48,901 nt of DNA from Methanolinea sp. (lineage in GTDB: Archaea > Halobacteriota > Methanomicrobia > Methanomicrobiales > Methanospirillaceae): contig JADFCY010000013.1 of assembly GCA_018263335.1 (NCBI GenBank), positions 1 to 48,901 on the forward strand. The letters run 5' to 3'. Position numbers and translations under genes: made by a program. A model generated the notes under the pieces. That model searched no databases. It saw only the letters and a program-made list of their open reading frames with translations, and had not been told where the DNA came from. Positions 31,188 to 48,169 of this stretch are shown here, in pieces (the stretch's first letter is position 1; every line of letters starts with the position of its first letter).

Positions 31188-31838
31188 TCAGCGGGAAATC
31201 CTCGCGTGGAGTTTCCTGAGCGTCGGCTCAATGGTGGGGAGGTAAATGTTGAGCACGTTCCAGACGAGACCCCAGTCGGGTGAGAAGTAAGGGTGTATCA
31301 GCCGCGACCTGAGGCCTTCGAGCTCTTTCCAGGAGATCCCCCTTGAGTCCTGCATGCACTGGTCCGAGACCCTTGCCGCTGATTCACCTATGACCTCAAG
31401 GCTCCGGACCACGGCACGCCGGAGCGTCTCGTCCTTCTGGAAGTCCCGGGCGGACACACCCTTTGTGCGGTGGGAGAGATAGGAGATCTCATCGAGGATC
31501 TGCCCGAGATACACCTTGTCGCGGCTGAGCACCGCATACTCGGACCCAAGTTCCGGCCTGATGTACGAGGCGAGCACGCGGGACATCACAAGGTCCACTC
31601 TCCTCCCAAGGAGTTCATCGAGGTACAGGGAAAGGCCGATATAGTTTGCATAGGTGTCCATCCCCGAATCGAATTCCACCTCGATATCAACATCGCTTTC
31701 GGTCCGCTCCTCGCCGCGGGCGACGGAACCGAAGATGCCGATCTTCTTCACTCCGTATAGCCTGCGCATCACTGCGAATTTCGCATTCAGGGCGAGTATC
31801 ACCTCTTCCCTTGTAGATGGTCTCTCCTGTGGCGGCAT
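31188..31838 (-). CDS. MNT nucleotidyltransferase-HEPN fusion (single-chain MntA-HepT-like protein)
   Basis: 216 residues with two domains that are usually separate genes. Residues about 1-105 form a minimal nucleotidyltransferase (MntA) with the intact motif GS-x10-DxD (Gly37-Ser38 ... Asp49, Asp51) and a further Asp in RRVDLV (Asp82). Residues about 110-216 form a HEPN/HepT domain with the R-x4-H-x-Y motif intact (Arg177, His182, Tyr184) and the following SPDWGLVWNVL. In two-gene systems HepT is an RNase toxin and MntA adds AMP to the Tyr of that motif. Here both lie in one frame without a break. The open frame runs back to 32477, but ATG 31838 gives the domain start; the upstream part is the antisense of a lipoprotein gene. 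It appears to be a single gene. Confidence 0.85.
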   Translation of the reverse strand: MPPQERPSTREEVILALNAKFAVMRRLYGVKKIGIFGSVARGEERTESDVDIEVEFDSGMDTYANYIGLSLYLDELLGRRVDLVMSRVLASYIRPELGSEYAVLSRDKVYLGQILDEISYLSHRTKGVSARDFQKDETLRRAVVRSLEVIGESAARVSDQCMQDSRGISWKELEGLRSRLIHPYFSPDWGLVWNVLNIYLPTIEPTLRKLHARISR

Positions 31839-31983
31839 CGTGTACCCTTGCCCTCTTTCTCCTCTCTCTTTTGTGTGCCGGGGCCTTATGGGTATCGCCA
31901 GAGCACACCGATTGGCAATGGCCTTCTCCCAGCCCGGGCCGTTTCCATCACCCCGAAGATTCTTTACCGAGCCCTGCACCCTC

Positions 31984-32508
31984 ATGATCATGCACACGCG
32001 TGAGAGACTGGCATGTGTCCTCATCATTGCAGTCCTGGCATCTGCCTGTGGCGGCTGTCTCATGGCGGGAGGCCCTGAAGGAGAAGTGCCCCCTACAGCG
32101 ACCTTCTCTGCTGCCCCCACTCCCCGAGTCATGGAGGGAGGGGTTGATGCCGGCAAACCAAAAGAGCCTTCCCTCCCCCCGAACCAGGCGTATCCCTTCC
32201 GGCCGCAGGGTGTCTTTCGGGCAGGAGACCGTATCCTTCTCAACGGCACGACGATCCTCTCTCCCGGGAACCATATCCTCGTCGAGGTCACGCCTGTCTC
32301 GTTTGGCCCGACGAGGAAGAGTGACCCGGTCGCGGTTTCAGGGAGCGCGGGCGTCGTGGCGGTCCTCGCAGGAGAACGCGGACTTCCGAATACCTGGTCG
32401 TACCTGATCGACACCCGCGGATGGGAACCAGACGAGTACCTGGTAAAGGTGCAGGGAATTGAGGTGCCTCTCTCCACCGCAAGCTACCGCTTCACGCTTC
32501 TCCCCTGA
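31984..32508 (+). CDS. Surface lipoprotein with a domain common in Methanomicrobiales exported proteins
   Basis: 174 residues from ATG 31984 (ATG 31990 is equally possible). A signal peptide with lipobox-like LASAC (Cys about 21, with two further Cys in GGC) is followed by a Pro-rich spacer (to about 65) and one beta domain. The domain runs through RAGDRILLNGTTILSPGNHILVEVTPVSF, SGSAGVVAVL, TWSYLIDTRGWEPDEYLVKV and ends ASYRFTLLP. I recall this layout as a repeated module in S-layer-like and lipid-anchored proteins of this order; the role is unknown. It is divergent from the MNT-HEPN gene (145 nt apart). The longer frame back to 31654 overlaps that gene and is not used. Confidence 0.72.
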   Translation: MIMHTRERLACVLIIAVLASACGGCLMAGGPEGEVPPTATFSAAPTPRVMEGGVDAGKPKEPSLPPNQAYPFRPQGVFRAGDRILLNGTTILSPGNHILVEVTPVSFGPTRKSDPVAVSGSAGVVAVLAGERGLPNTWSYLIDTRGWEPDEYLVKVQGIEVPLSTASYRFTLLP

Positions 32509-32530: not shown

Positions 32531-33793
32531 TCACCAGGTTCCGGATTTCTTCCCTTTCGCGGGCTTTTCCGGCTCCTGGTCGGGTTGCCTGGGTGGCTGG
32601 GGGATGGCACGGGGCCCTTCGCCCTGCTTCTTCCTTACCTTCTCCAGGGCTTCGAACCCCTCGCGCCTGACAGAAGGGACCGGGTCTGCCAGGAGCCGCG
32701 TCAGCCCGTCGACCGCGGCCGGGTCACCTATCTCCCCAAGCAAAAGCGCCGTCCGCCTGCGGACCTCCGCGTTCTGGTCAGAGAGGAGTTCCAGCAGGGG
32801 GCGGGTGGCCAGCTCACCGATGATCCAGAGCGCTTCCATAGTGCAGTTTCGCACCACGACGTCGCCCTCGCGAAACGCTGCCACGAGCGGGGTGATGGCG
32901 GGATTGCCAAGAAGCGCGAGTGCCCTGACGGCTTCCTGCCGGACATTCCTCTCCCTGTCCCCGAGGACGCCTATGAGGCCGGGGATCGCCCGGGGATCGC
33001 GTATCCTGCCGAGCACACCTGCGGCGCCCTGCCGCACCAGGGGGTCGTCATGGCCGAGTGCCGATATGAGCGGCTCGACTGCGAGGGTGCCGATCGAGGC
33101 GAGTGCGAGCGCCGAACGCTGGCGGATCTCTGGTTGCGGGTGGGCGAGTGCCGCAACCAGGGGAGCGATGCTTTTGCCCCCCATCGAGCAGAGGGCTTCT
33201 GCCGCGGCGATGCGGACGTACCCTGACTCGTCGCCGAGAAGGCTGATCAGCGGGGAAATGGCCTCCTCGGCCCCAAGCATCTTCAGCGCGGCTGCAGCCT
33301 CCCTCCGCACGCCGGGGTCACTGTCCTTTAATGCCTCGATCAGGGGAGCTGAAGCGGACTGCGCCTGCATCTCGCCCAGTATCTCCGCGGCACCGCGCCG
33401 TATTGCGGGATTGTCGCGTGAGAGCGCCCGCGTCAGCGACTCCACTGCGGGTCCCCCGATCAGCACACACGCACGCATGGCCTCCTGGCGGACCGACTCG
33501 TCCTCGGTTCCCAGCACCTCTATTAGCGGGGGAACGGCAGGGAGCCCGATCCTCGCGAGCGTCTCTCCCGCCCCCCTCCTGATGATCCAGTGCTCGTCGT
33601 CAAGCGCATTGACGAGCGGCTCGATGAATGCGTCCCCCAGCTCACCTGCCGCCCGGATGGCGTTCCAGCGGGTTTCCACGTCTCCGTAGGCGAGCGCCTT
33701 CTTTACGCTCTCCATGTGCTCCCTCTCCACTTCATCCGCCTGGTGCGCCCCTTCCCCGCCAAGCGCCCCCTTGAGTGACCGAAAGATGCTCAT
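32531..33793 (-). CDS. HEAT-repeat (PBS-lyase type) protein
   Basis: 420 residues, almost all of it tandem repeats of about 31 residues with the pattern A-V-x-P-L-I-x-A-L-x-D-x-D-x-x-V-R-x-x-A-A-x-A-L-G-x-I-G. I count about eleven units between residues 30 and 380. A charged N-terminal lead (FRSLKGALGGEGAHQADEVEREHM) and a Pro/Lys-rich tail (PQPPRQPDQEPEKPAKGKK) flank the solenoid. It has no membrane segment and no catalytic motif, so it should be a cytoplasmic binding scaffold. Its partner is unknown. It is one of three HEAT proteins in this window and ends convergently with the lipoprotein gene. Confidence 0.9.
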   Translation of the reverse strand: MSIFRSLKGALGGEGAHQADEVEREHMESVKKALAYGDVETRWNAIRAAGELGDAFIEPLVNALDDEHWIIRRGAGETLARIGLPAVPPLIEVLGTEDESVRQEAMRACVLIGGPAVESLTRALSRDNPAIRRGAAEILGEMQAQSASAPLIEALKDSDPGVRREAAAALKMLGAEEAISPLISLLGDESGYVRIAAAEALCSMGGKSIAPLVAALAHPQPEIRQRSALALASIGTLAVEPLISALGHDDPLVRQGAAGVLGRIRDPRAIPGLIGVLGDRERNVRQEAVRALALLGNPAITPLVAAFREGDVVVRNCTMEALWIIGELATRPLLELLSDQNAEVRRRTALLLGEIGDPAAVDGLTRLLADPVPSVRREGFEALEKVRKKQGEGPRAIPQPPRQPDQEPEKPAKGKKSGTW

Positions 33794-36552: not shown

Positions 36553-36671
36553 GTTCCATCATCCCTTTTTTGGGAATTCTCGTTTCGTTTGCAGTTATCC
36601 TCGCCCGCGGGCTTGTAGATTTAAGAGAGAGCAGCTCACACCTTATCCCATGGGTGGGAGGCAAGACTGCA

Positions 36672-37919
36672 ATGCGTGAATTCATCGAGCAGATGCGGGA
36701 GCATTCGATGGTCGTCGACGTGGATAAGAGGCCTACGGACGAGTTCGGTGCACCGAAGATGGCGAGCAGGACAGACTCCCTCATCTTCTTCCATGATCTC
36801 CCCGAAGGCCGCTGCGTCATGAATGTCACGGCCACAAGAAAGGCGCTCTCCCTCGCGCTCGGCGTCGGAGAGGGCGAGATTGGGATGCGCCTCTCGAAAT
36901 CCTCGTACGAGGGAAGCGTGGTCAGGGAGGGCAACCTGGCCATGGCTGCGCCGGACCTCTCCCGTGTCCCCGTCATGAAGTTCTTTCCCGGCGATGCCGG
37001 GAAGTACCTCACCGCAGGCATCGTCTTCTCCCGGTACCAGGGGGTGGAGAATGCGTCCATCCACAGGATGCTTGTCCTTGACCGTGACAGGGTTGCGGCA
37101 AGGCTCGTCGAGGGGAGGCACACCCACATGCTCCACAGGGAGGCGCTTGGCCGGGGAGAAGAGCTCCCAGTGGCTGTTGCGGTCGGGGTCCACCCAGCCG
37201 TGACCTTTGCCAGCTGCTCCCGTGTCCCGAAGGGAAAAGAGCTGCCCTTTGCCGCTGAGTTGCTCGGGGGCGAGATCCGGGTCCACCAGTGCCGTAACGG
37301 GGTGCTGGTCCCCGACGCGGAGATCGTGCTTGAGGGCTACATCGGCAGCGACACGGCACGTGAGGGGCCGTTTGTGGACATCACCGGCACCTACGACAGT
37401 GTTCGCACGCAGCCGGTGATTCGGTTTACCGGGATGCATACCAAGAAGGACTGTATCTACCACAGCATCCTCCCGGGCGGCAACGAGCACCGGATCCTCA
37501 TGGGCGTCCCTTACGAGCCCATCATATTCCGGGCGGTGTCAGGTGTCACTGAGGCGAGGAACGTGGTACTGACTACCGGGGGATGCGGCTATTTCCATGC
37601 CGTGATCCAGATCAGGAAGAGCACCCAGGGGGACGCCAAGAACGCCATCATGGCAGCGTTTGCCGCGCACACATCCCTCAAGCACGTGGTCGTGGTAGAT
37701 GAGGACATAGACCCCGCCGACCCACACGAGGTCGAGTTTGCCCTGGCGACGAGGGTCCGGGGGGACCAGGACATCATGGTGGTCACCGGGGTGAGGGGGT
37801 CGTCGCTCGATCCCTGCAGGGTAGGCGACGGTACCAACGTGAAGGTGGGTGTCGATGCGACGATGGTCCTTGGCAGGGAGGCCGAGTTCCGGCGTGCCGG
37901 GTGGCAGGACGGTTCATGA
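36672..37919 (+). CDS. UbiD-family decarboxylase, likely anhydromevalonate phosphate decarboxylase
   Basis: 415 residues. UbiD-fold features are HRMLVLDRDRVAARLVEGRHTHMLH, VAVAVGVHPAVTFASCSRVP, FVDITGTYDSVRTQPVI and VVVDEDIDPADPHEVEFALATRVRGDQDIMV. UbiD enzymes use prenylated FMN. Because the next gene (ATGA overlap) is an aconitase X homologue, this is probably the archaeal enzyme that decarboxylates trans-anhydromevalonate 5-phosphate to isopentenyl phosphate. An open frame reaches back to 36570, but ATG 36672 starts the conserved MREFIEQM. UbiX and isopentenyl phosphate kinase are not in the window. Confidence 0.85.
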   Translation: MREFIEQMREHSMVVDVDKRPTDEFGAPKMASRTDSLIFFHDLPEGRCVMNVTATRKALSLALGVGEGEIGMRLSKSSYEGSVVREGNLAMAAPDLSRVPVMKFFPGDAGKYLTAGIVFSRYQGVENASIHRMLVLDRDRVAARLVEGRHTHMLHREALGRGEELPVAVAVGVHPAVTFASCSRVPKGKELPFAAELLGGEIRVHQCRNGVLVPDAEIVLEGYIGSDTAREGPFVDITGTYDSVRTQPVIRFTGMHTKKDCIYHSILPGGNEHRILMGVPYEPIIFRAVSGVTEARNVVLTTGGCGYFHAVIQIRKSTQGDAKNAIMAAFAAHTSLKHVVVVDEDIDPADPHEVEFALATRVRGDQDIMVVTGVRGSSLDPCRVGDGTNVKVGVDATMVLGREAEFRRAGWQDGS

Positions 37920-39100
37920 TCCTCTCGCCTGACGAGGAGGCCGTCCTCGCCGGGGAGGAGGGCGAGACGAGGGCCAGGATGCTCGAGATCCTGGTGGCGC
38001 TCGGCAAGGTCTACGGGGCAGAAAGGCTTATCCCCATCGTCAGCGCCCAGGTGAGCGGGGCCTCCTACAAGACCATCGGCCGCTGGGGCCTTGACTGGCT
38101 CCAGAGGCTCGATGCCAGGGTCTCCGTACCGACGGTGCTTAACCCGGTGGGAATGGACCGTTCCCGCTGGCGGGAGATGGGCATAACCCCCGAATTCGCA
38201 CGTGTGCAGGAGAAGGTGCTGGATGCCTACCGGCGCCTTGGCGTGACCATGGAGTGCACGTGCACGCCGTATTACCTGTATATGACCCGGTACGGCGATC
38301 ACCTGGCCTGGTCCGAGTCCTCGGCGGTCGCGTATGCAAACTCGGTGATCGGGGCGAGGACGAACCGTGAAGGGGGGCCAAGCGCCCTTGCGGCGGCGAT
38401 CATCGGGAAGACGCCGGAATACGGGCTCCACCTGGTTGCAGCGAGGGCACCCCAGGTGGTAATCCGCGTCGAGGAAGGAGAGAGGCTCACCGATGCCGCC
38501 CACCTCGGCGCACTCGGATACCTTGCGGGGAGACTTGTAGGCAGCCGCATCCCCCTGTTCGAGGGAATACGGCCAAAGAAGGACCTCCTGAAAGCACTCG
38601 GGGCCGCGATGGCAGCATCCGGTGCGGTGGCCCTCTTCCACGTGAAGGGTATCACTCCCGAGGCGAGGATCTTCTCCTATCCCACAGGAGGGCTGGAGGT
38701 GATCTCCCTCGGATTCGATGAGGTGTCGGCCGCCATGCAAGAGATCCCGGTGGACGCCGTCGCCCTGGGATGCCCCCACTGCTCGCGGGACGAGCTCTCC
38801 CGTATCGCGGAGCTCCTTGCCGGAAAAAAGGTCCGGATTCCGGTCTTTGTCTTTGCCGCGAGGGATGTGTTGTCCCGTCACCCCGAAGAGGTCGCCGCCA
38901 TCGAAGAGAGCGGGGCACACGTGTTTGCCGACACCTGCATGGTGGTATCCCCTGCGATGGAGCGGTTCTCGGCAATCATGGTCAACTCGGGGAAGGCGTA
39001 TGCCTACATCCCGAACATGTGCGGTGCAGCAGTCCGCCTCGGGACCACCGAAGAATGCATCGAGGTGGCGACCGGGGCCCCGGAAGGGAGTCCCCGGTAA
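37916..39100 (+). CDS. Aconitase X large subunit, likely phosphomevalonate dehydratase large subunit
   Basis: 394 residues from ATG 37916, overlapping the UbiD stop. The start MILSPDEEAVLAGEEGE fits aconitase X. Cluster and active-site blocks include IVSAQVSGASYKTIGRWGLDWL, MECTCTPYYLYMTRYGDHLAWSESSAVAYANSVIGARTNREGG, ALGCPHCSRDELSRI, FADTCMVVSPAM and AYIPNMCGAAVRLG; the cysteines match the expected [4Fe-4S] ligands. In archaea this subunit and a small swivelling subunit dehydrate mevalonate 5-phosphate in the modified mevalonate pathway. The small subunit gene is not seen here. Confidence 0.87.
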   Translation: MILSPDEEAVLAGEEGETRARMLEILVALGKVYGAERLIPIVSAQVSGASYKTIGRWGLDWLQRLDARVSVPTVLNPVGMDRSRWREMGITPEFARVQEKVLDAYRRLGVTMECTCTPYYLYMTRYGDHLAWSESSAVAYANSVIGARTNREGGPSALAAAIIGKTPEYGLHLVAARAPQVVIRVEEGERLTDAAHLGALGYLAGRLVGSRIPLFEGIRPKKDLLKALGAAMAASGAVALFHVKGITPEARIFSYPTGGLEVISLGFDEVSAAMQEIPVDAVALGCPHCSRDELSRIAELLAGKKVRIPVFVFAARDVLSRHPEEVAAIEESGAHVFADTCMVVSPAMERFSAIMVNSGKAYAYIPNMCGAAVRLGTTEECIEVATGAPEGSPR

Positions 39101-39141: not shown

Positions 39142-39151
39142 GATTTATCAA
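39142..39151 (+). promoter_or_regulatory. Box A promoter of the HEAT/DUF432/MscS cassette
   Basis: GATTTATCAA is centred about 30 nt before ATG 39177, which predicts a leaderless or nearly leaderless message. Confidence 0.45.
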
Positions 39152-39176: not shown

Positions 39177-40418
39177 ATGGCATTTTCTGACCTGCACCTG
39201 AACAGGATGGACCGATACAAACTGGCCATTCTCCTCTTCCTTGTCGCCGTCTCGGTGGCACTCGAGGCAGTCGTGCACCACGCGATGGGGGTAGAGGTGG
39301 TATACTCCCATTTCTTCTACATCCCCGTGGTCCTGGGAGCGGTCTGGTACGGGAAGAGGGGGGTGCTGGTGGCGGTCTTCCTCGCGGCAGTGTACGTCGG
39401 TGACTACTCTCTCATCGGTGGAGCCGTACCAGTCGACGCGTGGATCCGCGCCTTGATGTTCGTCGTCGTTGCCCTCGTTATCGGGACCGTGATGGACTAT
39501 GTCCACAGGGAACAGGAGCAGGTGATGACCCAGATGGCCAATGCCGCGCTGAGGGAAGGCACCTCGGGTCGGTTCCGGGGCAACCTTGACGAATGGAAGG
39601 CGAAGTTACGATCTTCGGTCAACGTGAAGAGGCTCCGGGATGAGAAGGATGTCCGGGGGCTTATCGAGGCCCTCACGCACAGAGACCCAGCGGTCCAGTA
39701 CGAAGCGGCCGAGGCCCTGGGTGTATTGAGGGAACCCTCGGCGGTCATCCCTCTCATGGCCGCACTCACAGGGGACCGCTACTCTGGGGTGAGATGGAAG
39801 GCAGCCGAGGCCCTTGCCCGGATCGGCAGTCCCGCCGTCGAGCCGCTCATCGGGGCGCTTGGAAACCCTGACGAGGACGTGAGGTGGAAAGCGGCGATCG
39901 CGCTCGGCGAGATCGGTGACCCCCGTGCCATCCCCCCGCTGATTGCACTCCTCGAGGACCACGACCGGTTCGTCCAGAGCAGGGCAGCGTACGCACTGGG
40001 CCAGTTCGGCAGTTCCGCCCTCTCCCCACTTCTTCCAGTTCTGCAGGCGGGAAGCCCTGATGCGAGGCGCGGAGCCGCGATCGCGCTCGGAAAGATCGGC
40101 GCTCCGGAAGTGATGGATCCGCTTCTCTTTGCGCTCTCAGACCCCGATGACGCAGTCCGCTCCTCCGTTCTTGACGCCCTCGCGTGCCTTGGCGAAGGCG
40201 TCCATGCACGACTGCTTGCGCATGTCGGCGCAGCCTCCCCGGATGAGAGGAACCGGATCTTCCAGACACTCCGGGAGGCGACCAGCCCGAAGTTTGTGGA
40301 GGGTTTTTTCCCTGTCCTCTCCCTGGCAGACGACGAAACAAGGGACGTGATCCTCTCTTTGGCCCGGAAGAGAGGGGAGAAGCAGACAGAACTCAAAGAA
40401 AGTGGCGCCGGGCGATAA
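39177..40418 (+). CDS. Membrane protein with cytoplasmic HEAT repeats
   Basis: 413 residues. The first 110 form four hydrophobic segments (YKLAILLFLVAVSVALEAVV; FFYIPVVLGAVWYG; VLVAVFLAAVYVG; ALMFVVVALVIGTVMDYV), resembling the membrane-sensor part of archaeal signalling proteins. A helical linker (about 112-150) is followed by about seven HEAT-like repeats (VRWKAAEALARIGSPAVEPLIGAL and similar) to about residue 390. No kinase or other catalytic domain is present. It may pass a membrane state to a binding scaffold. The genes for DUF432, MscS and another HEAT protein follow in the same direction. Confidence 0.82.
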   Translation: MAFSDLHLNRMDRYKLAILLFLVAVSVALEAVVHHAMGVEVVYSHFFYIPVVLGAVWYGKRGVLVAVFLAAVYVGDYSLIGGAVPVDAWIRALMFVVVALVIGTVMDYVHREQEQVMTQMANAALREGTSGRFRGNLDEWKAKLRSSVNVKRLRDEKDVRGLIEALTHRDPAVQYEAAEALGVLREPSAVIPLMAALTGDRYSGVRWKAAEALARIGSPAVEPLIGALGNPDEDVRWKAAIALGEIGDPRAIPPLIALLEDHDRFVQSRAAYALGQFGSSALSPLLPVLQAGSPDARRGAAIALGKIGAPEVMDPLLFALSDPDDAVRSSVLDALACLGEGVHARLLAHVGAASPDERNRIFQTLREATSPKFVEGFFPVLSLADDETRDVILSLARKRGEKQTELKESGAGR

Positions 40419-40453
40419 AATTCCCGCACTGCACGTGGTTTTTTCCCCGGTCA

Positions 40454-40463
40454 AGTATATGTG
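40454..40463 (+). promoter_or_regulatory. Box A promoter of the DUF432 gene
   Basis: AGTATATGTG is centred 27 nt before the GTG at 40485 and overlaps the upstream in-frame GTG at 40461. It therefore favours a leaderless start at 40485. Confidence 0.45.
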
Positions 40464-40484
40464 CTGAGAGTCCCATCTCTTCCT

Positions 40485-41195
40485 GTGTTTGGAATATACA
40501 AGATCCCTTTCCAGACAGATGCGGGCGGGATCACCGTATCGGTTGAGGTCGAAGGCGAAACATCCACTTACAGGAGGGTTGCCCCGGGAGAGACGCTCAC
40601 GAAGCGGCTTGGGTACCGCGAAGGGAGAGTGATCATCAACCCCGTCGAGCCCGTCAACCTGCCTTCGGAGGTGACGGGGATGCTCGAATTCCACTTCACG
40701 CCTGTCACTCTCAGGCCGAGCTCACGGATCCCGGTCTGCCTGAAATTCCCTGTGGAGATCGGGGTATTTGTCGGAGCCGCTGAAAATTATACGCTCCTTG
40801 ACGTCTTCTCCCTTGCCCGGCCCAAGTACTCCCTCTACGGCACCCCGGAGAACGGGTTCATCACGAGGCACGTTGAGTGCGAGGTCTTTGAGTCCGCGCC
40901 CCCTACGGACCCCCTTAAGGAGGGGGTGCTCTTCCTTGCCATCAGGAACTCCGGGAGGGACTGGGTGGAGGTCTCGCGTGCCGTCTTTGACGTCTCCGCA
41001 CTTAGGATCTTCCACGGAAGGATGGTCGCAATCTCCGGAGAGATGGAGGTCTTCTCGCGCCTCGTGGCCGAGACGAGGGTCCTCGACCTGCCGCCCGAGG
41101 AGGGGATGAAGCAGTCGCTGCGCGTGTTTCCCACGAAAAGGTTGCTTATCCCTGAAAAACAGCCGTTCATGATGGAATACGGCGTAGGGGAGTGA
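40485..41195 (+). CDS. DUF432 protein
   Basis: 236 residues from GTG 40485, which gives the DUF432-type start (M)FGIYKIPF; a GTG at 40461 would add eight residues. The fold is beta-rich, with PGETLTKRLGYREGRVIINPVEPVNLP, IPVCLKFPVEIGVFV, KYSLYGTPENGFITRHVE and FPTKRLLIPEKQPFMMEYG. No catalytic motif is visible. DUF432 genes are often found next to mscS in archaea, as here (MscS begins 6 nt after the stop, with GGGGAG upstream). A cytoplasmic binding partner of the channel is a reasonable but unproven idea. Confidence 0.82.
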   Translation: MFGIYKIPFQTDAGGITVSVEVEGETSTYRRVAPGETLTKRLGYREGRVIINPVEPVNLPSEVTGMLEFHFTPVTLRPSSRIPVCLKFPVEIGVFVGAAENYTLLDVFSLARPKYSLYGTPENGFITRHVECEVFESAPPTDPLKEGVLFLAIRNSGRDWVEVSRAVFDVSALRIFHGRMVAISGEMEVFSRLVAETRVLDLPPEEGMKQSLRVFPTKRLLIPEKQPFMMEYGVGE

Positions 41196-41201
41196 ACGGA
41201 A

Positions 41202-42062
41202 ATGGCGTTCGAATCTCTCAGGATTGAAATCATAGGAAATGTCACCCTGTTCGACCTGATCGTATTTGCCATCTCGGTGCTGGCAGCGGCAATCATCGCA
41301 AAAGTCGTTGCCATTTACCTCAAGAAGTCCCTGAGCGACCGGATCCAGCCAAAAGAGATGGACTTTTTGATAAGGATAATCCAGGCTGCGATCGTCATCA
41401 TCGGGATATACCTCGCCCTCCCGAGTTTTGACATCAACCTTGCGGACATGCTGGTGGTGGGGGGCACGATGGGGCTGGTGATTGCGTTTGCAAGCCAGCG
41501 GATCGTCTCGAACTTCGGTTCGGGCCTCTTCCTCATCGCGGAGCGGCCGATGAAGCCCGGGGACAGCGTCAATATCGGGGCGGTGAGCGGAACGGTAGAG
41601 GAGATACGGGTCCTCTCCACCATCATAAAGACCCACGAGGGGGTGTACGTGAGGGTCCCGAACGAAAAGATCTTCACGTCGGAAATCACCAATTTCGTCG
41701 CCAATGTGGCCAGGAGGTTCGAGTACACCATAGGGATCAGCTACCAGTCCGACGCCGCGAGGGCGATCCGCATCATCAAGAGTCTCCTCGACGACCATCC
41801 TTTTGTCCTCAGACACCCGGCCCCGAGCGTCTTTGTGGACACCCTCTCGGACTCGAGCGTGAACCTCAGGGTATTCATCTGGGCACCCTCCCGGGTGTGG
41901 TGGTCGGTGAGGACCGAGATGCTCTGGGCGATCAAGAAAGCGCTCGATGCCGAAGGGATCGAGATCCCATTCCCCCAGAGGGTGATCACGTTTGCCAGGG
42001 ATAAGGAAGGATCCTCCCGTTGCGATACTCCGGGAGATGGAGCTGCCTATGGAAGACCCTGA
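41202..42062 (+). CDS. MscS-family mechanosensitive ion channel
   Basis: 286 residues. Membrane helices cover about 5-115, with the pore-lining TM3 and following beta domain in IAFASQRIVSNFGSGLFLIAERPMKPGDSVNIG, then GTVEEIRVLSTIIKTHEGVYVRVPNEKIFTSEITNF and the C-terminal alpha/beta domain VFVDTLSDSSVNLRVFIWAPS. MscS channels open on membrane tension to release osmolytes under hypo-osmotic shock. It is co-transcribed with DUF432 and overlaps the next HEAT gene. Confidence 0.93.
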   Translation: MAFESLRIEIIGNVTLFDLIVFAISVLAAAIIAKVVAIYLKKSLSDRIQPKEMDFLIRIIQAAIVIIGIYLALPSFDINLADMLVVGGTMGLVIAFASQRIVSNFGSGLFLIAERPMKPGDSVNIGAVSGTVEEIRVLSTIIKTHEGVYVRVPNEKIFTSEITNFVANVARRFEYTIGISYQSDAARAIRIIKSLLDDHPFVLRHPAPSVFVDTLSDSSVNLRVFIWAPSRVWWSVRTEMLWAIKKALDAEGIEIPFPQRVITFARDKEGSSRCDTPGDGAAYGRP

Positions 42063-42558
42063 ACTGGAGAACCTTGCCGCGACACTCGTGCATGGGAACC
42101 TGTCCGCACGACGCGAGGCAGTCAGGCAGCTTGCCGGGATGCGGGAGAAGGCCATTCCCCGACTCATCTCGCTCCTCCAGGAACCGGTGGAGAACGATGT
42201 ACGGTGGTACGCCGCAGTCGCCCTCGTCAGGATCGGCCCGCAGGCAATTGGCCCGCTCGTCGATGCACTATCAAAAAACCCGGATCCCGGTTTCTGCCGG
42301 TATGCCGCCGCCACGCTCGGGCACCTCGGTGAGCAGGCGGTGGCACCGATCCTCTCAGCCATGCGCGATGCGGATCCAAAGACCCGGGGGTTCCTTGCGC
42401 AGGCCCTGTGCAGGATCGGGGAGGCGGCAATCCCCGCGGTCAGGGAGATGCTCGGGTCAGACGACCCGGTGCTCCGTGAGTGCGCCACGCTCACCCTCTG
42501 GCAGATGGGCGAGGTGGGGCTGGAGTCGCTCCTTTCGTCGATGGATGAAAGGGCATAA
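42049..42558 (+). CDS. Small HEAT-repeat protein next to MscS
   Basis: 169 residues, with about five HEAT repeats (REKAIPRLISLLQEPVENDVRWYAAVALVRIG; LGHLGEQAVAPILSAMRDADPKTRGFLAQALCRIG). There is no membrane segment. Possible starts are TTG 41992, ATG 42037 and ATG 42049. I chose the last because GGAG lies 6 nt before it; all three overlap the end of mscS. The overlap implies co-translation with the channel, suggesting that the solenoid acts on MscS or DUF432. Its repeats resemble those of the membrane HEAT protein at the head of the cassette. Confidence 0.82.
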   Translation: MEDPELENLAATLVHGNLSARREAVRQLAGMREKAIPRLISLLQEPVENDVRWYAAVALVRIGPQAIGPLVDALSKNPDPGFCRYAAATLGHLGEQAVAPILSAMRDADPKTRGFLAQALCRIGEAAIPAVREMLGSDDPVLRECATLTLWQMGEVGLESLLSSMDERA

Positions 42559-42667
42559 CAATTATTTGCGGACGTACTCTCCCCTCTTTTCCATTGGAGA
42601 TGATCGAGGAGATAGCGCATGGAGAGATTTCAAAGCCAACTGATAAGTCACTGACGCGGCAAGAGAG

Positions 42668-45600
42668 ATGGTGATGATGCAGTGCTCTCCGGCAATCGAG
42701 CGCTACCTTGCCGGGCTGCAGGAAGGGCTGAACGCGGCCATGGCAGTTGCGGAGCGGGCAAGGGCCGTGGGGATCGACCCCCGCACGGCCGTCGAGATAC
42801 CCGTTGCAAGCGACCTCGCGGACCGTGTGGAGGCCCTCCTTGGGATCAGGGGCCTGGCCGCGAGGATACGCGAGATGGAGGGCCAGATGTCGAGGGAGGA
42901 GGTTGCCCTCCACATCGGCGGGGACTTTGTGCAGCGCAGGTTCGGGGAGAAGAGCGAAGAGGAGATCCTCGACCATGCCATACGCACCGCCATGGCGGTG
43001 CTCACAGAGGGAGTGGTCGCAGCCCCGACGGAAGGGATCGCCAAGGTGGGCATCGGGCGAAATGACGACGGGAGCCGGTACCTGAAGATCTATTATGCAG
43101 GGCCGATCAGGAGCGCAGGGGGGACTGCGCAGGCTCTCTCTGTGCTGGTAGGGGATTTTGTCAGGCGAGCGCTCGGGATGAACCGCTATATCCCCCGCCC
43201 CGAGGAAGTGGAGCGCTACATCGAGGAGATCCGCCAGTACAACTCCATCATGAACCTGCAGTACCTCCCCTCTGAGCGGGAGATCAGATTGATCGTCCAG
43301 AACTGCCCGGTCTGTATCGACGGTGAAGGGACGGAGGAGGAGGAGGTCAGCGGGTACCGGAACCTCGAGCGGGTGGAGACGAACACCGTGAGGGGCGGGA
43401 TGGCGCTCGTGCTTGCAGAGGGCCTTGCACTCAAGGCACCAAAGGTCCAGAAGAACGTGCGGGCGCTCTCGCTGGACGGGTGGGAGTGGCTGGATGAACT
43501 GATCGGAGGGGCCACGAAGGGGGGCGATGGGGATGATGCCCCAGGTATCAGGCCGAAAGACAAGTACCTGCGGGACCTCATCGGGGGCCGCCCCGTCTTC
43601 TCCTACCCGATGAGAAAAGGGGGGTTCAGGCTCCGGTACGGCCGCTCACGGAACACGGGCTTTGCTGCGGCGGGGCTCAACCCTGCGACCATGCATATCC
43701 TCGGGGACTTCCTGGCAGTAGGTACCCAGATGAAGGTGGAGCGGCCGGGCAAGGCCGCCGGGATCGTCCCGGTGGACACCATCCAGGGACCGACGGTCAG
43801 GCTGAAATGCGGAGACGTCCTCAGGATCGACGATGCGGCGCAGGCAAGAGCGCTCAGCCCGGAAGTCGAGCGGATCCTCGACGTCGGGGAGATCCTTATA
43901 GGATACGGCGAGTTCCTTGAGAACAACCACCCCCTTGTCCCGCCTGCCTACTGCCACGAGTGGTGGTGCCTGGAAGGCGGGTCGGTGCGGCCCGAGAACG
44001 AGGAGGAGGCAATCGCCCTCTGCTTCGAGGGAGCATTCCTCCATCCCGACTTCACGTGGCTCTGGGACGACCTCTCATGTGAAGAGATCGCAGAACTTGC
44101 GGACTCAGTTGCGCAGTATGGGGAATTGAAGCACGGTATCCTCGTCCTGCCCCAGGAGGGACGCATCAAGGAGATGCTCGAGGTGATCCTTCTCCCCCAC
44201 CGCGTAAGGGAGGGGCTCATCTGCATCAGCGAATACTACGTCTTCCTCGCGTGCCTTGGTCTTGACCTGAAGCTGAAGAAGCGACCTGCGTGGGAGGGGG
44301 CTCCAAGGGACGACCCGCTCTCCCTCGTTTGCCACCTCTCGGGGTTCCGGATGCGGTCCAGGGGGGGCACCCGCATCGGGGGGCGCATGGGCCGCCCCGG
44401 GAAATCGAAGCCCCGGAAGATGAACCCTCCACCCCACTCGCTCTTTCCCCTCGGCGAGGCGGGAGGCAGCAGACGTTCGTTCCAGGAAGCATCGAACCAC
44501 GCCCCGCAGCCGAACATGGATGGCGGGGTGATCACCATCGAGACCGGGAGGAGGAGATGCCCCTCCTGCGGCACCGAGACGTTCCGCAACCGGTGCGAGT
44601 GCGGGGCTCACACCGATCCGGTCTACAGCTGCCCCCGCTGCAAGCGGGAGCACGAGGGCCTCGAGTGCCCGAACTGCCATACGCCACTTGTCTGCTCATT
44701 GGTCACCAGCCTCAACGTGAAGCAGGAGTATGCGACAGCGATGGAGCGCCTCGGCATCAGGGAGAGCAGCATCTCGCTCGTGAAAGGAGTGAAGGGGCTC
44801 ATCTCCCGGGAGCGGACGGTGGAGCCGATGGAGAAGGGGATCCTCAGGGCGGCGCGGGACCTCTTTGTCTTCAAGGATGGAACAATCCGGTACGATATGA
44901 TCGACCTCCCCCTCACCCACATCCGTCCCGGAGAGGTGGGGGTCTCCCCCGAACGGCTCAGGGAGCTTGGGTACACGGAGGATATCCAGGGAGATCCGCT
45001 CCACGCTCCGACACAGGTGGTGGAACTCAAGGCCCAGGACATCCTGGTCTCTGACTCCTGCGCGGAGTACATGGTGAAGGTGGCGCAGTTCCTTGACGAG
45101 CTCCTTGAGAAGTGCTATGGCCTGCCCCCCTTCTACCGGGTGCAGACGAGGGACGACCTCCTTGGCCACCTGGTGATCGGCCTTGCACCCCACACAAGTG
45201 CAGGAGTGCTCGCGAGGATCGTCGGGTTCTCCCGTGCGAACGTCGGGTACGCCCACCCCTTCTTCCACGCGGCCAAACGGCGGAACTGCTTCTTCGGAGA
45301 CACCATGATCGAGACCTTCGATGGGAGGGAATGGTGCACGAGGCCGATACGGCAGATAGTCTCCGAGAACTTCGACCTTTCCCGGCCGGGGATCGACCGG
45401 CTCGGGACATATTACTCGGACCCGGCGTCCACGCTCCTGGTGCGCACCGTTGACCGTGAGGGCAAGCCCCACCTTCGGCGTGTGACGACGGTCTCCATCC
45501 ACAGGTCTCCGCAAGCCCTGATCCGGTTCGAGACCCGCGGCGGCCGGGAGATTGCCGTGACCCCTGATCACGCAATGCTCGTCTGGGACACCTGTACGCT

Positions 45601-46534
45601 CCGGAAGATCAGGGCGGTCGAACTGGAGGAGGGGGACCCGGTCCCGGTGATGGTGGGAATGAACGTCCTTTCCGATCACATCATCCGCCGCGAGGTCGTC
45701 CCGTCCCCTGACACGCGGGTATTCTGCCTGACCGTGTCAGACGACCACACGGTGCTCGCAAACGGCATCTTCACCGGACAGTGCGACGGCGACGAGGACT
45801 GCATCATGCTCCTCCTTGACGGGCTGATCAACTTTTCCCGCTCGTTTTTACCCGAGACCCGTGGCGGCTCCATGGACGCGCCGCTCGTCCTGACCACCAG
45901 GATCGATCCCGCCGAGATCGACAAGGAGAGTCACAACCTCGACGTGGCGCCCGGCTACCCCCTCGAGTTCTACCTCGCCACCCTTGGGTATGCGCACCCA
46001 AAGGAAGTGGAGGGGCTTGTGGACCGGGTGGGCAGGCGCCTTGGGACCCCCGCACAGATCGAGGGGTTCTCGTTCACGCACGACACGACGGATATCTCAG
46101 CGGGACCCCTCGAGTCCACGTATACCCAGCTCAAGAGCATGATAGACAAGCTCGACGCAGAACTCTCCCTTGCGACGAAGATCCGTGCCGTTGACGAGGA
46201 TGACGTGGCAGAACGGGTGCTGACCACCCATTTTATCCGCGACCTTCAGGGAAACCTCTCTGCCTTCTCAAAGCAGAAGTTCCGGTGCGTGAAGTGCAAC
46301 ACGAGTTTCCGCCGGATGCCGCTTGCGGGCAAATGCAACCGGTGCGGCGGAAACATCATCCCCACGGTCCACGAGGGTTCTGTGAAGAAGTACCTGGAGA
46401 TGTCGCGGGATATCTGCAGGAAGTACCGGGTATCGGAGTATACCCGCCAGCGGGTCCAGGTCCTCGATATGGCGATCGAGTCGACGTTTGGCCAGGAGAA
46501 GAGCCAGCAGATGGGCCTCGCAGACTTCATGTAA
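42668..46534 (+). CDS. polC: DNA polymerase D large subunit (DP2), intein-containing
   Basis: 1288 residues including a 165-residue intein, so the mature subunit has 1123, normal for DP2. Blocks in order: [84 protein letters not shown], a zinc-ribbon group ([32 protein letters not shown]; about 634-680), [16 protein letters not shown], and the catalytic DGDEDC immediately after the intein. The C-terminal zinc finger [24 protein letters not shown] ends in a PIP-like [12 protein letters not shown]-type tail. It is the polymerising subunit of replicative PolD; the small subunit is not in the window. The start may be ATG 42668 or the in-frame ATG 42674. Confidence 0.96.
45287..45781 (+). other. 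Mini-intein in DP2 (165 residues, no homing endonuclease)
   Basis: The intein starts at Cys874 ([13 protein letters not shown], block A), has block B with TPDH ([17 protein letters not shown]) and a C-terminal block [21 protein letters not shown], and is followed by the extein Cys1039. Splicing would join R-R-N to C-D-G-D-E-D. The length leaves no room for a homing endonuclease. Two positions are unusual: the last residue is Gln rather than Asn, as known from the Pyrococcus abyssi PolII intein, and the penultimate residue is Gly rather than His. The site is the known DP2 insertion site. Confidence 0.93.
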
Positions 46535-47043: not shown

Positions 47044-47934
47044 TTATTCTGGCCTCTTCTCTGCGGGCTCGCCCCCCTTTCGTCCCTTCCACCACCGGTA
47101 AGCGGCATAGGCGACCAGTGCGAGGACGACCAGCGGGATAATCGAGATCAGGATGATCACGAGTGCGGCGGTCACCCCGAGGAACCCGGCGATGCCCTCG
47201 TTGATGACCGAAGTGACCGACGGCCCGTCCCCGGCTCCCACTGGCTCGGGTTCATTGAAGGAGACGGTAATCGTCGCGTACTCGATCCTGTTGTCGAGGT
47301 ATTTCAATCGCCCGTCGATGCGGTCCATCTCCACCTGCACGCGCTCGACCTGCTGCTGTACCTCCAGGATCTCGGAGACGTTTCCTGCCATCTCCATGAT
47401 CCGCTGGTACTGGGCACGCTGGTTTGCGAGCGCCCCCCGCCGTGCCTGGAGGTCGACGTACTCCTCGGTCACGTCATCTGCCTGCACCGACTGGGACCGA
47501 AGTGTCCCAAGCGCGGCGATGGATGCGAGCACCCGGTCAAAGGAAGCGGCCGGGACCCGCATGACAAGGGAACCAGAGAGGCGGTCGCCGCGGTACCGGT
47601 CCAGCGAGAGCGAACCGATGTACCCGCCATTCCCGGTCGCAATGGACTGCAGGGCGTCCCGTGCGGCCATCACGTCTTTTACTTCCAGGTCCACGCGGGC
47701 GGTCCTGAGGATCTTCTGCTCGTCGCCTGCCCACGCACCGGCGCCTGTTGCGGGGACAGCCGTAGGGTAGGCCGTTATCGGGGCGAATCCATAGTCCGCG
47801 CCCACTCCTTCACTGCTCGCTTTCTGGGAGGATATCGTGCCCGGGATATCGGGGGATATACACCCCGCACTCAAGAGTCCCCCCGAAAGGACTGCCAGGA
47901 GAAGGAGAAGGGAGAAGATCTCTCTGTTCTGCAT
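47044..47934 (-). CDS. DUF4349 lipoprotein
   Basis: 296 residues. The lipobox is LSAGC (Cys25), followed by a linker to about 75. The DUF4349 region has RTARVDLEVKDVMAARDALQSIATGNGGYI and GSLVMRVPAASFDRVLASI, then a long coiled-coil (ALANQRAQYQRIMEMAGNVSEILEVQQQVERVQVEMDRI) and LDNRIEYATITVSFNEPEP. A C-terminal membrane helix (about 255-285, VIILISIIPLVVLALVAYAAY) and a basic tail follow. It is therefore anchored at both ends in the membrane. A frame extends to 48057, but ATG 47934 has GGAGGG upstream and starts the signal peptide. The function of the family is unknown. Confidence 0.88.
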   Translation of the reverse strand: MQNREIFSLLLLLAVLSGGLLSAGCISPDIPGTISSQKASSEGVGADYGFAPITAYPTAVPATGAGAWAGDEQKILRTARVDLEVKDVMAARDALQSIATGNGGYIGSLSLDRYRGDRLSGSLVMRVPAASFDRVLASIAALGTLRSQSVQADDVTEEYVDLQARRGALANQRAQYQRIMEMAGNVSEILEVQQQVERVQVEMDRIDGRLKYLDNRIEYATITVSFNEPEPVGAGDGPSVTSVINEGIAGFLGVTAALVIILISIIPLVVLALVAYAAYRWWKGRKGGEPAEKRPE

Positions 47935-48034
47935 ACAAGTCCCTCCCCGGCCGAGAAGAAAAATTATTCCGTGAGTGCGATTCGTTTCGCAGTCTCTTTT
48001 GCCCGGACAGTTGGGTCGACGAGTGCAAAGTGGT

Positions 48035-48044
48035 GAATATTTAT
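48035..48044 (+). promoter_or_regulatory. Box A promoter of tRNA-Leu
   Basis: GAATATTTAT lies about 47 nt before the tRNA and predicts a precursor starting near 48067 with a 20-nt 5' leader. Confidence 0.45.
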
Positions 48045-48086
48045 CCCGGCGGGTCACCCTTGATTATTGGGTACTCATATCCAATC

Positions 48087-48169
48087 GCGAGTGTGACTGA
48101 GAGGCCAAAAGTGACCGACTCAAGATCGGTTCTCGCAGGAGTTCGCAGGTTCGAATCCTGCCACTCGCA
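48087..48169 (+). tRNA. tRNA-Leu (anticodon CAA)
   Basis: 83-nt class II tRNA. Acceptor stem GCGAGTG/CACTCGC (seven pairs), anticodon stem ACCGA/TCGGT around loop CTCAAGA giving anticodon CAA, a long variable arm with CTC-GCAG-GAG, and T arm GCAGG-TTCGAAT-CCTGC. The discriminator is A and CCA is not encoded. It reads UUG leucine codons. No intron is seen. Confidence 0.95.

Follow-up and report, generated by a model that had tools for sequence, protein, structure and literature searches.

The closest described relative of the predicted channel considered here is MscS of Escherichia coli (PDB 2vv5 and others), and the archaeal protein likewise has transmembrane helices, a beta domain, and a C-terminal domain. 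Unlike E. coli MscS, the archaeal copy pairs with a protein of the DUF432 family (PF04254). For the DUF432 family, neither a described function nor a solved relative turned up. A literature search, with most subscription journals outside its reach, returned no paper in which PF04254 or the whole word DUF432 occurs; it also returned none joining HEAT repeats, MscS, and archaea, in line with the remark of an earlier sequence-only reading that it knew of no description of HEAT partners for this pair. The pair studied here comes from Methanolinea sp. (assembly GCA_018263335.1), and the window, the whole stretch of DNA analyzed, comprises positions 1–48,901 of contig JADFCY010000013.1. All four plus-strand open reading frames (ORFs) that the reading had grouped together were confirmed: HEAT1 (39177–40418), DUF432 (listed at 40461–41195), MscS (41202–42062), and HEAT2 (listed at 41992–42558). 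By comparing this locus across its order, Methanomicrobiales, we arrived at an explanation to which we give a probability of roughly 60%, namely that DUF432 and mscS form a valve operon with its own promoter, that HEAT2 is a co-transcribed, dispensable neighbor, and that HEAT1 is a separate unit.

To assign the genes, identities were scored with Pfam and NCBIfam profiles against the family cut-offs. The 286-residue MscS protein exceeded the cut-offs of three MscS domains, present in the order TM2/3 domain (PF21088, 29.0 bits), beta domain (PF00924, 72.4 bits), and C-terminal domain (PF21082, 67.9 bits), and it aligned to E. coli MscS across residues 20–270 (E = 2.9e-37). The neighboring protein scored 119.6 bits for PF04254, whose cut-off is 21, and structure prediction gave an all-beta model with a predicted local distance difference test (pLDDT) score of 90 and a predicted template-modeling (pTM) score of 0.87. 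A sequence search of solved structures found no relative of DUF432, and a Foldseek fold search gave no match at E ≤ 0.001; comparison with solved folds by VIA-align yielded Z scores no higher than 5.6, with only about 60 residues aligned. A missing structural match is not proof of a new fold.

Among 199 genomes of the order, DUF432 was detected in 151, and a sample of the phylum gave 184 of 393. We annotated 140 loci around DUF432, which together with the window made 141, of which 101 belonged to the order and 40 lay outside it. In 139 of the 141 loci, mscS directly followed DUF432 on its 3′ side, with gaps near zero. Within Methanomicrobiales, a HEAT gene lay directly 3′ of mscS in 50 of 101 loci and directly 5′ of DUF432 in 28 of 101, whereas none of the 40 loci outside the order had one in the flanking positions listed. 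In our labels, f1g3 is Methanoregula, f4 Methanofollis, f5g19 Methanoculleus, and f9 Archaeoglobaceae; f8 was taken as Methanosarcinaceae from the Methanosarcina acetivorans control, and we take f6g27 to be Methanocorpusculum. The full order HEAT1-DUF432-MscS-HEAT2-polymerase, ending in the gene for the DNA polymerase D large subunit, was found in Methanolinea-like genomes, several other f1 genera, f3, and f6g20, while f6g27 kept only the small HEAT gene beside DUF432-mscS and had no HEAT1 upstream. HEAT genes thus recur next to DUF432-mscS in relatives (f1, f3, f4, and f6), so the survey did not show the lack of conservation that the sequence-only reading had named as refuting its idea. Chance adjacency is ruled out, because the arrangement recurs in whole families of the order.

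Other neighbors of DUF432-mscS varied by lineage. By eye, NfeD-like and SPFH/stomatin-like genes occupied the usual HEAT1 position 5′ of DUF432 in two f6g27 loci (L145 and L146), and a CorA-like gene stood directly 5′ of the pair in four f8 loci (L200, L207, L219, and L227). A Ca-ATPase-like P-type ATPase gene preceded DUF432 in one Methanoregula locus (L076), and a gene for a DUF389-like membrane protein followed mscS in L201 (f30), both again assigned by eye. Three genomes (G047, G003, and G009) carried two DUF432-mscS copies each, one HEAT-linked and one not.

The start sites and promoter-like elements of the locus were then compared with those of relatives. Because DUF432 homologues open with M-[FY]-G, the DUF432 gene most likely starts at GTG 40485 rather than at 40461, which would give a protein of 236 residues (40485–41195, plus strand). 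For HEAT2, the most likely start is ATG 42049 (42049–42558, plus strand) or ATG 42037, the listed TTG 41992 being less likely; these two starts imply an overlap with mscS of 14 or 26 nucleotides, respectively, covering the mscS stop. Where HEAT1 immediately preceded DUF432 (27 loci), the AT fraction rose to 0.96 at positions −29/−28 from the DUF432 start, compared with about 0.45 around it, and the TATA-like peak spanned −34 to −25 even directly behind HEAT1. In the window, this AT peak corresponds to a putative TATA box, AAGTATATG, at 40453–40461 (plus strand). A similar AT peak preceded DUF432 in the unlinked loci of the order; none preceded mscS or HEAT2. HEAT1 has a putative promoter of its own, the TATA-like element ATTTATC at 39143–39149 (plus strand); a GGTGGATTTATCA..GATTT block before HEAT1 was conserved in the closest relatives, and other genera had CTTTAAATTTT at a similar distance. 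Likewise, a TATA-like element, GATAAGTC, at 42642–42649 (plus strand) precedes the polymerase gene and is conserved in relatives, most of which carry GATAA[AG]TC about 30–40 nucleotides 5′ of that gene. These motifs point to three likely transcription units, HEAT1, DUF432-mscS-HEAT2, and the polymerase gene, with HEAT2 probably sharing the DUF432-mscS transcript. A single four-gene operon is not favored, because HEAT1 and DUF432 each have a promoter-like element.

To see what becomes of the HEAT genes without the channel pair, we inspected the region 5′ of the polymerase D gene in genomes where DUF432-mscS lies elsewhere or was undetected. Most of them still had HEAT1 with HEAT2, or HEAT2 by itself, at this place. 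HEAT1 and HEAT2 were adjacent there without DUF432-mscS in two genomes of the Methanoculleus group (G004 and G080, f5) and in f2g34, f2g25, f3g26, and f1g2; in the f3g26 genomes, both HEAT genes were kept and DUF432 was undetected. HEAT2 alone still lay 5′ of the polymerase gene in f1g3, f2g23, f2g29, and f2g31, among others. Overall, of the 135 genomes with located genes, 120 had HEAT2 no more than 6 kb from the polymerase gene. Among those 120, DUF432 stood beside HEAT2 in 34, stood elsewhere in 61, and was absent from the matches listed in 25; these counts are approximate, as the last class includes a few genomes with a DUF432 match. Hence 86 of the 120 had no DUF432 beside HEAT2, and the HEAT genes do not always accompany DUF432-mscS, 61 genomes having separated them. 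Because the HEAT genes outlast the channel genes in several lineages, they are probably long-standing neighbors rather than obligatory channel parts.

The history of the neighborhood is consistent with repeated uncoupling. On a tree of the polymerase N-terminal region, HEAT and channel genes were linked in f3, f4, f6, and part of f1; they were unlinked in f2 together with f5, in f3g26, and in f1g2 together with f1g3. The tree, several deep nodes of which are weakly supported, favors an ancestral linkage followed by at least three separations. In a tree of DUF432-MscS, the copies of the order grouped together with a support of 0.93, and the order's base was not resolved.

Next, HEAT2 and the channel proteins were examined for signs that they depend on the partnership. 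At a polymerase identity to the window of 71–76%, linked HEAT2 proteins shared on average 41.2% identity with that of the window (n = 21 genomes) and unlinked ones 42.2% (n = 50; Mann-Whitney p = 0.18, related genomes not being independent). Relaxed constraint on HEAT2 after separation was therefore not seen at matched polymerase divergence. Furthermore, we looked for alignment columns conserved in linked loci yet lost in both unlinked groups; at the thresholds used, 0 of 41 conserved columns in DUF432 and 0 of 67 in MscS behaved in this way. The tests for dependence of the HEAT proteins on the channel thus came out negative.

Both HEAT proteins exceeded the cut-off of the HEAT_2 profile, with 139.7 bits for HEAT1 and 75.9 bits for HEAT2, the latter a small soluble protein. 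The HEAT1 model (mean pLDDT 83, pTM 0.59) placed helices at residues 8–37, 45–81, and 86–126, followed by a helical solenoid, so the N terminus is predicted to consist of long membrane-type helices. Its membrane domain (about residues 12–120) scored 16.1 bits for DUF4118 (PF13493), below the cut-off of 28.4. The first 130 residues matched many larger proteins in related genomes, and two of those tested were PAS-histidine kinases, one of which reached the DUF4118 cut-off with 28.9 bits. Because HEAT1 itself stays below the cut-off and one homologous kinase domain lies above it, we call the domain DUF4118-like only. HEAT1 thus resembles archaeal PAS-histidine kinases in a homologous membrane domain (34–40% identity in the closest two) but carries HEAT repeats in place of the PAS and kinase domains. 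This bears out the description of one HEAT protein as fused to a membrane sensor-like domain, a domain that is general-purpose in related genomes and that HEAT1 lacks in some cassettes of relatives. The closest solved matches of the HEAT1 solenoid (about residues 150–400) were artificial alphaRep binding proteins (3ltj and 7z0g; about 40% identity), which are soluble designs, whereas HEAT1 bears a membrane domain.

The source genome has about 12–13 HEAT ORFs in 2.03 Mb, roughly 0.6% of its genes if about 2,000 are assumed, a background against which the flanking of DUF432-mscS by HEAT in whole families exceeds chance. One of these, of 420 residues, lies at 32531–33793 on the minus strand of the window and adjoins CofD and a HepT ORF. 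The latter (31188–32477, minus strand, 429 residues) has a nucleotidyltransferase domain at residues 237–302, a HepT-like domain at 327–422, and an N-terminal stretch of about 230 residues without a match, and is possibly a fused MntA-HepT toxin-antitoxin pair.

In the explanation that we prefer, two separately conserved gene units would meet at the locus, DUF432-mscS and a HEAT1-HEAT2-polymerase block. The core would be DUF432-mscS, a pair that is translationally tight and all but constant across the phylum and that starts at its own putative TATA box. On osmotic down-shock, MscS would most likely serve as an emergency release valve opened by tension, and DUF432, all-beta and soluble, would most likely be an accessory protein translated from the same transcript. 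In the Methanomicrobiales ancestor, DUF432-mscS most likely came to lie between HEAT1, with its own promoter, and HEAT2, just 5′ of the polymerase gene. No promoter-like element precedes HEAT2 here; its transcription probably starts from the DUF432 promoter, so it would be expressed together with the channel. The HEAT proteins themselves most likely serve another purpose, binding proteins independently of the channel. Of this account, the gene order, its conservation, the motifs, and the repeated uncoupling are observations; promoter function, the osmotic role, and the independence of the HEAT proteins are inferred.

The strongest rival is the one that the sequence-only reading had put forward, in which the HEAT proteins gate or scaffold the channel. 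HEAT2, together with the membrane-anchored, sensor-bearing HEAT1, would bind the cytosolic side of MscS or DUF432 and scaffold, cluster, tune, or gate the channel, as an MscS complex special to this lineage that was lost secondarily in several of its branches. Several observations weigh against our explanation. Linkage spans four of the six families, and two genomes, G021 and G064 (the latter presumably Methanosphaerula palustris), keep a small HEAT gene with DUF432-mscS while the polymerase gene is far off, which suggests some selection for togetherness. Methanofollis (f4) keeps the HEAT genes with the pair in a new order, DUF432-MscS-HEAT2-HEAT1, with the polymerase gene next in several genomes. 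In f1g12 and f1g5, DUF432 and HEAT2 alike were undetected at the cut-off used. At a polymerase identity of 77–80%, linked HEAT2 proteins were closer to that of the window than unlinked ones (46.9% versus 41.9%), in a bin with only seven linked cases, all from the window's own family. The rival draws on the linkage across four families, on G021 and G064, on HEAT2 overlapping or abutting mscS without a promoter-like peak of its own, and on the likeness of the HEAT1 solenoid to alphaRep binders. Nevertheless, at least three lineages split the genes yet kept HEAT, which persists by the polymerase gene; HEAT2 is equally conserved without the channel, and MscS and DUF432 carry no linkage-specific residues. 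HEAT1, moreover, has its own promoter-like element and a membrane domain missing from some cassettes, and no HEAT-MscS or DUF432-MscS fusion ORF was found among the fetched loci. Nothing beyond the neighborhood itself thus speaks for gating or scaffolding, and we regard such a complex as unlikely.

Given that HEAT2 so often lies within 6 kb 5′ of the polymerase gene in the order, HEAT2 might instead serve DNA replication as an adaptor linked to the large subunit of polymerase D, with the channel genes as mere passers-by. We consider this very unlikely, since in 15 of the 135 genomes HEAT2 lies more than 6 kb away or on another contig, and the polymerase gene has a conserved promoter-like element of its own. 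Among 17 genomes from other orders, not one had a same-strand HEAT gene just 5′ of the polymerase gene, with one opposite-strand match, and polymerase D is present in f1g5 and f1g12, where HEAT2 gave no match at the cut-off used. A shared stress response without contact, in which HEAT1 is a membrane signal adaptor and the valve operon also answers osmotic or membrane stress, would fit the kinship of the HEAT1 membrane domain with PAS-histidine kinases and the CorA-, Ca-ATPase-, NfeD-, SPFH-, and DUF389-like neighbors in other lineages, but is improbable given the general-purpose use of that domain, the occurrence of HEAT1 without DUF432-mscS nearby, and the lineage-dependent neighbors of the pair.

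Around the four genes, UbiD-family decarboxylase and aconitase X genes (36570–39100, plus strand; Pfam and NCBIfam matches) mark where the syntenic block ends upstream, and the order UbiD-AcnX-HEAT1 is kept in relatives. Downstream, the gene for the DNA polymerase D (DP2) large subunit (42668–46534, plus strand) matched PRK14714 with 1994.7 bits and contains an intein, recognized by N- and C-terminal NCBIfam models. Beyond it, the opposite strand carries a DUF4349 gene (47044–48057, minus strand), followed by tRNA-Leu at 48087.

If HEAT-MscS contact were true, a class of channels that is usually regarded as self-sufficient would gain a cytosolic scaffold. Under the separate-unit explanation that we prefer, the HEAT neighbors illustrate that a conserved gene order can hint at a complex that an order-wide comparison fails to bear out. 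DUF432, by contrast, is the near-constant genomic partner of MscS across this archaeal phylum, and of all the parts it most merits a test as an accessory subunit of the channel.

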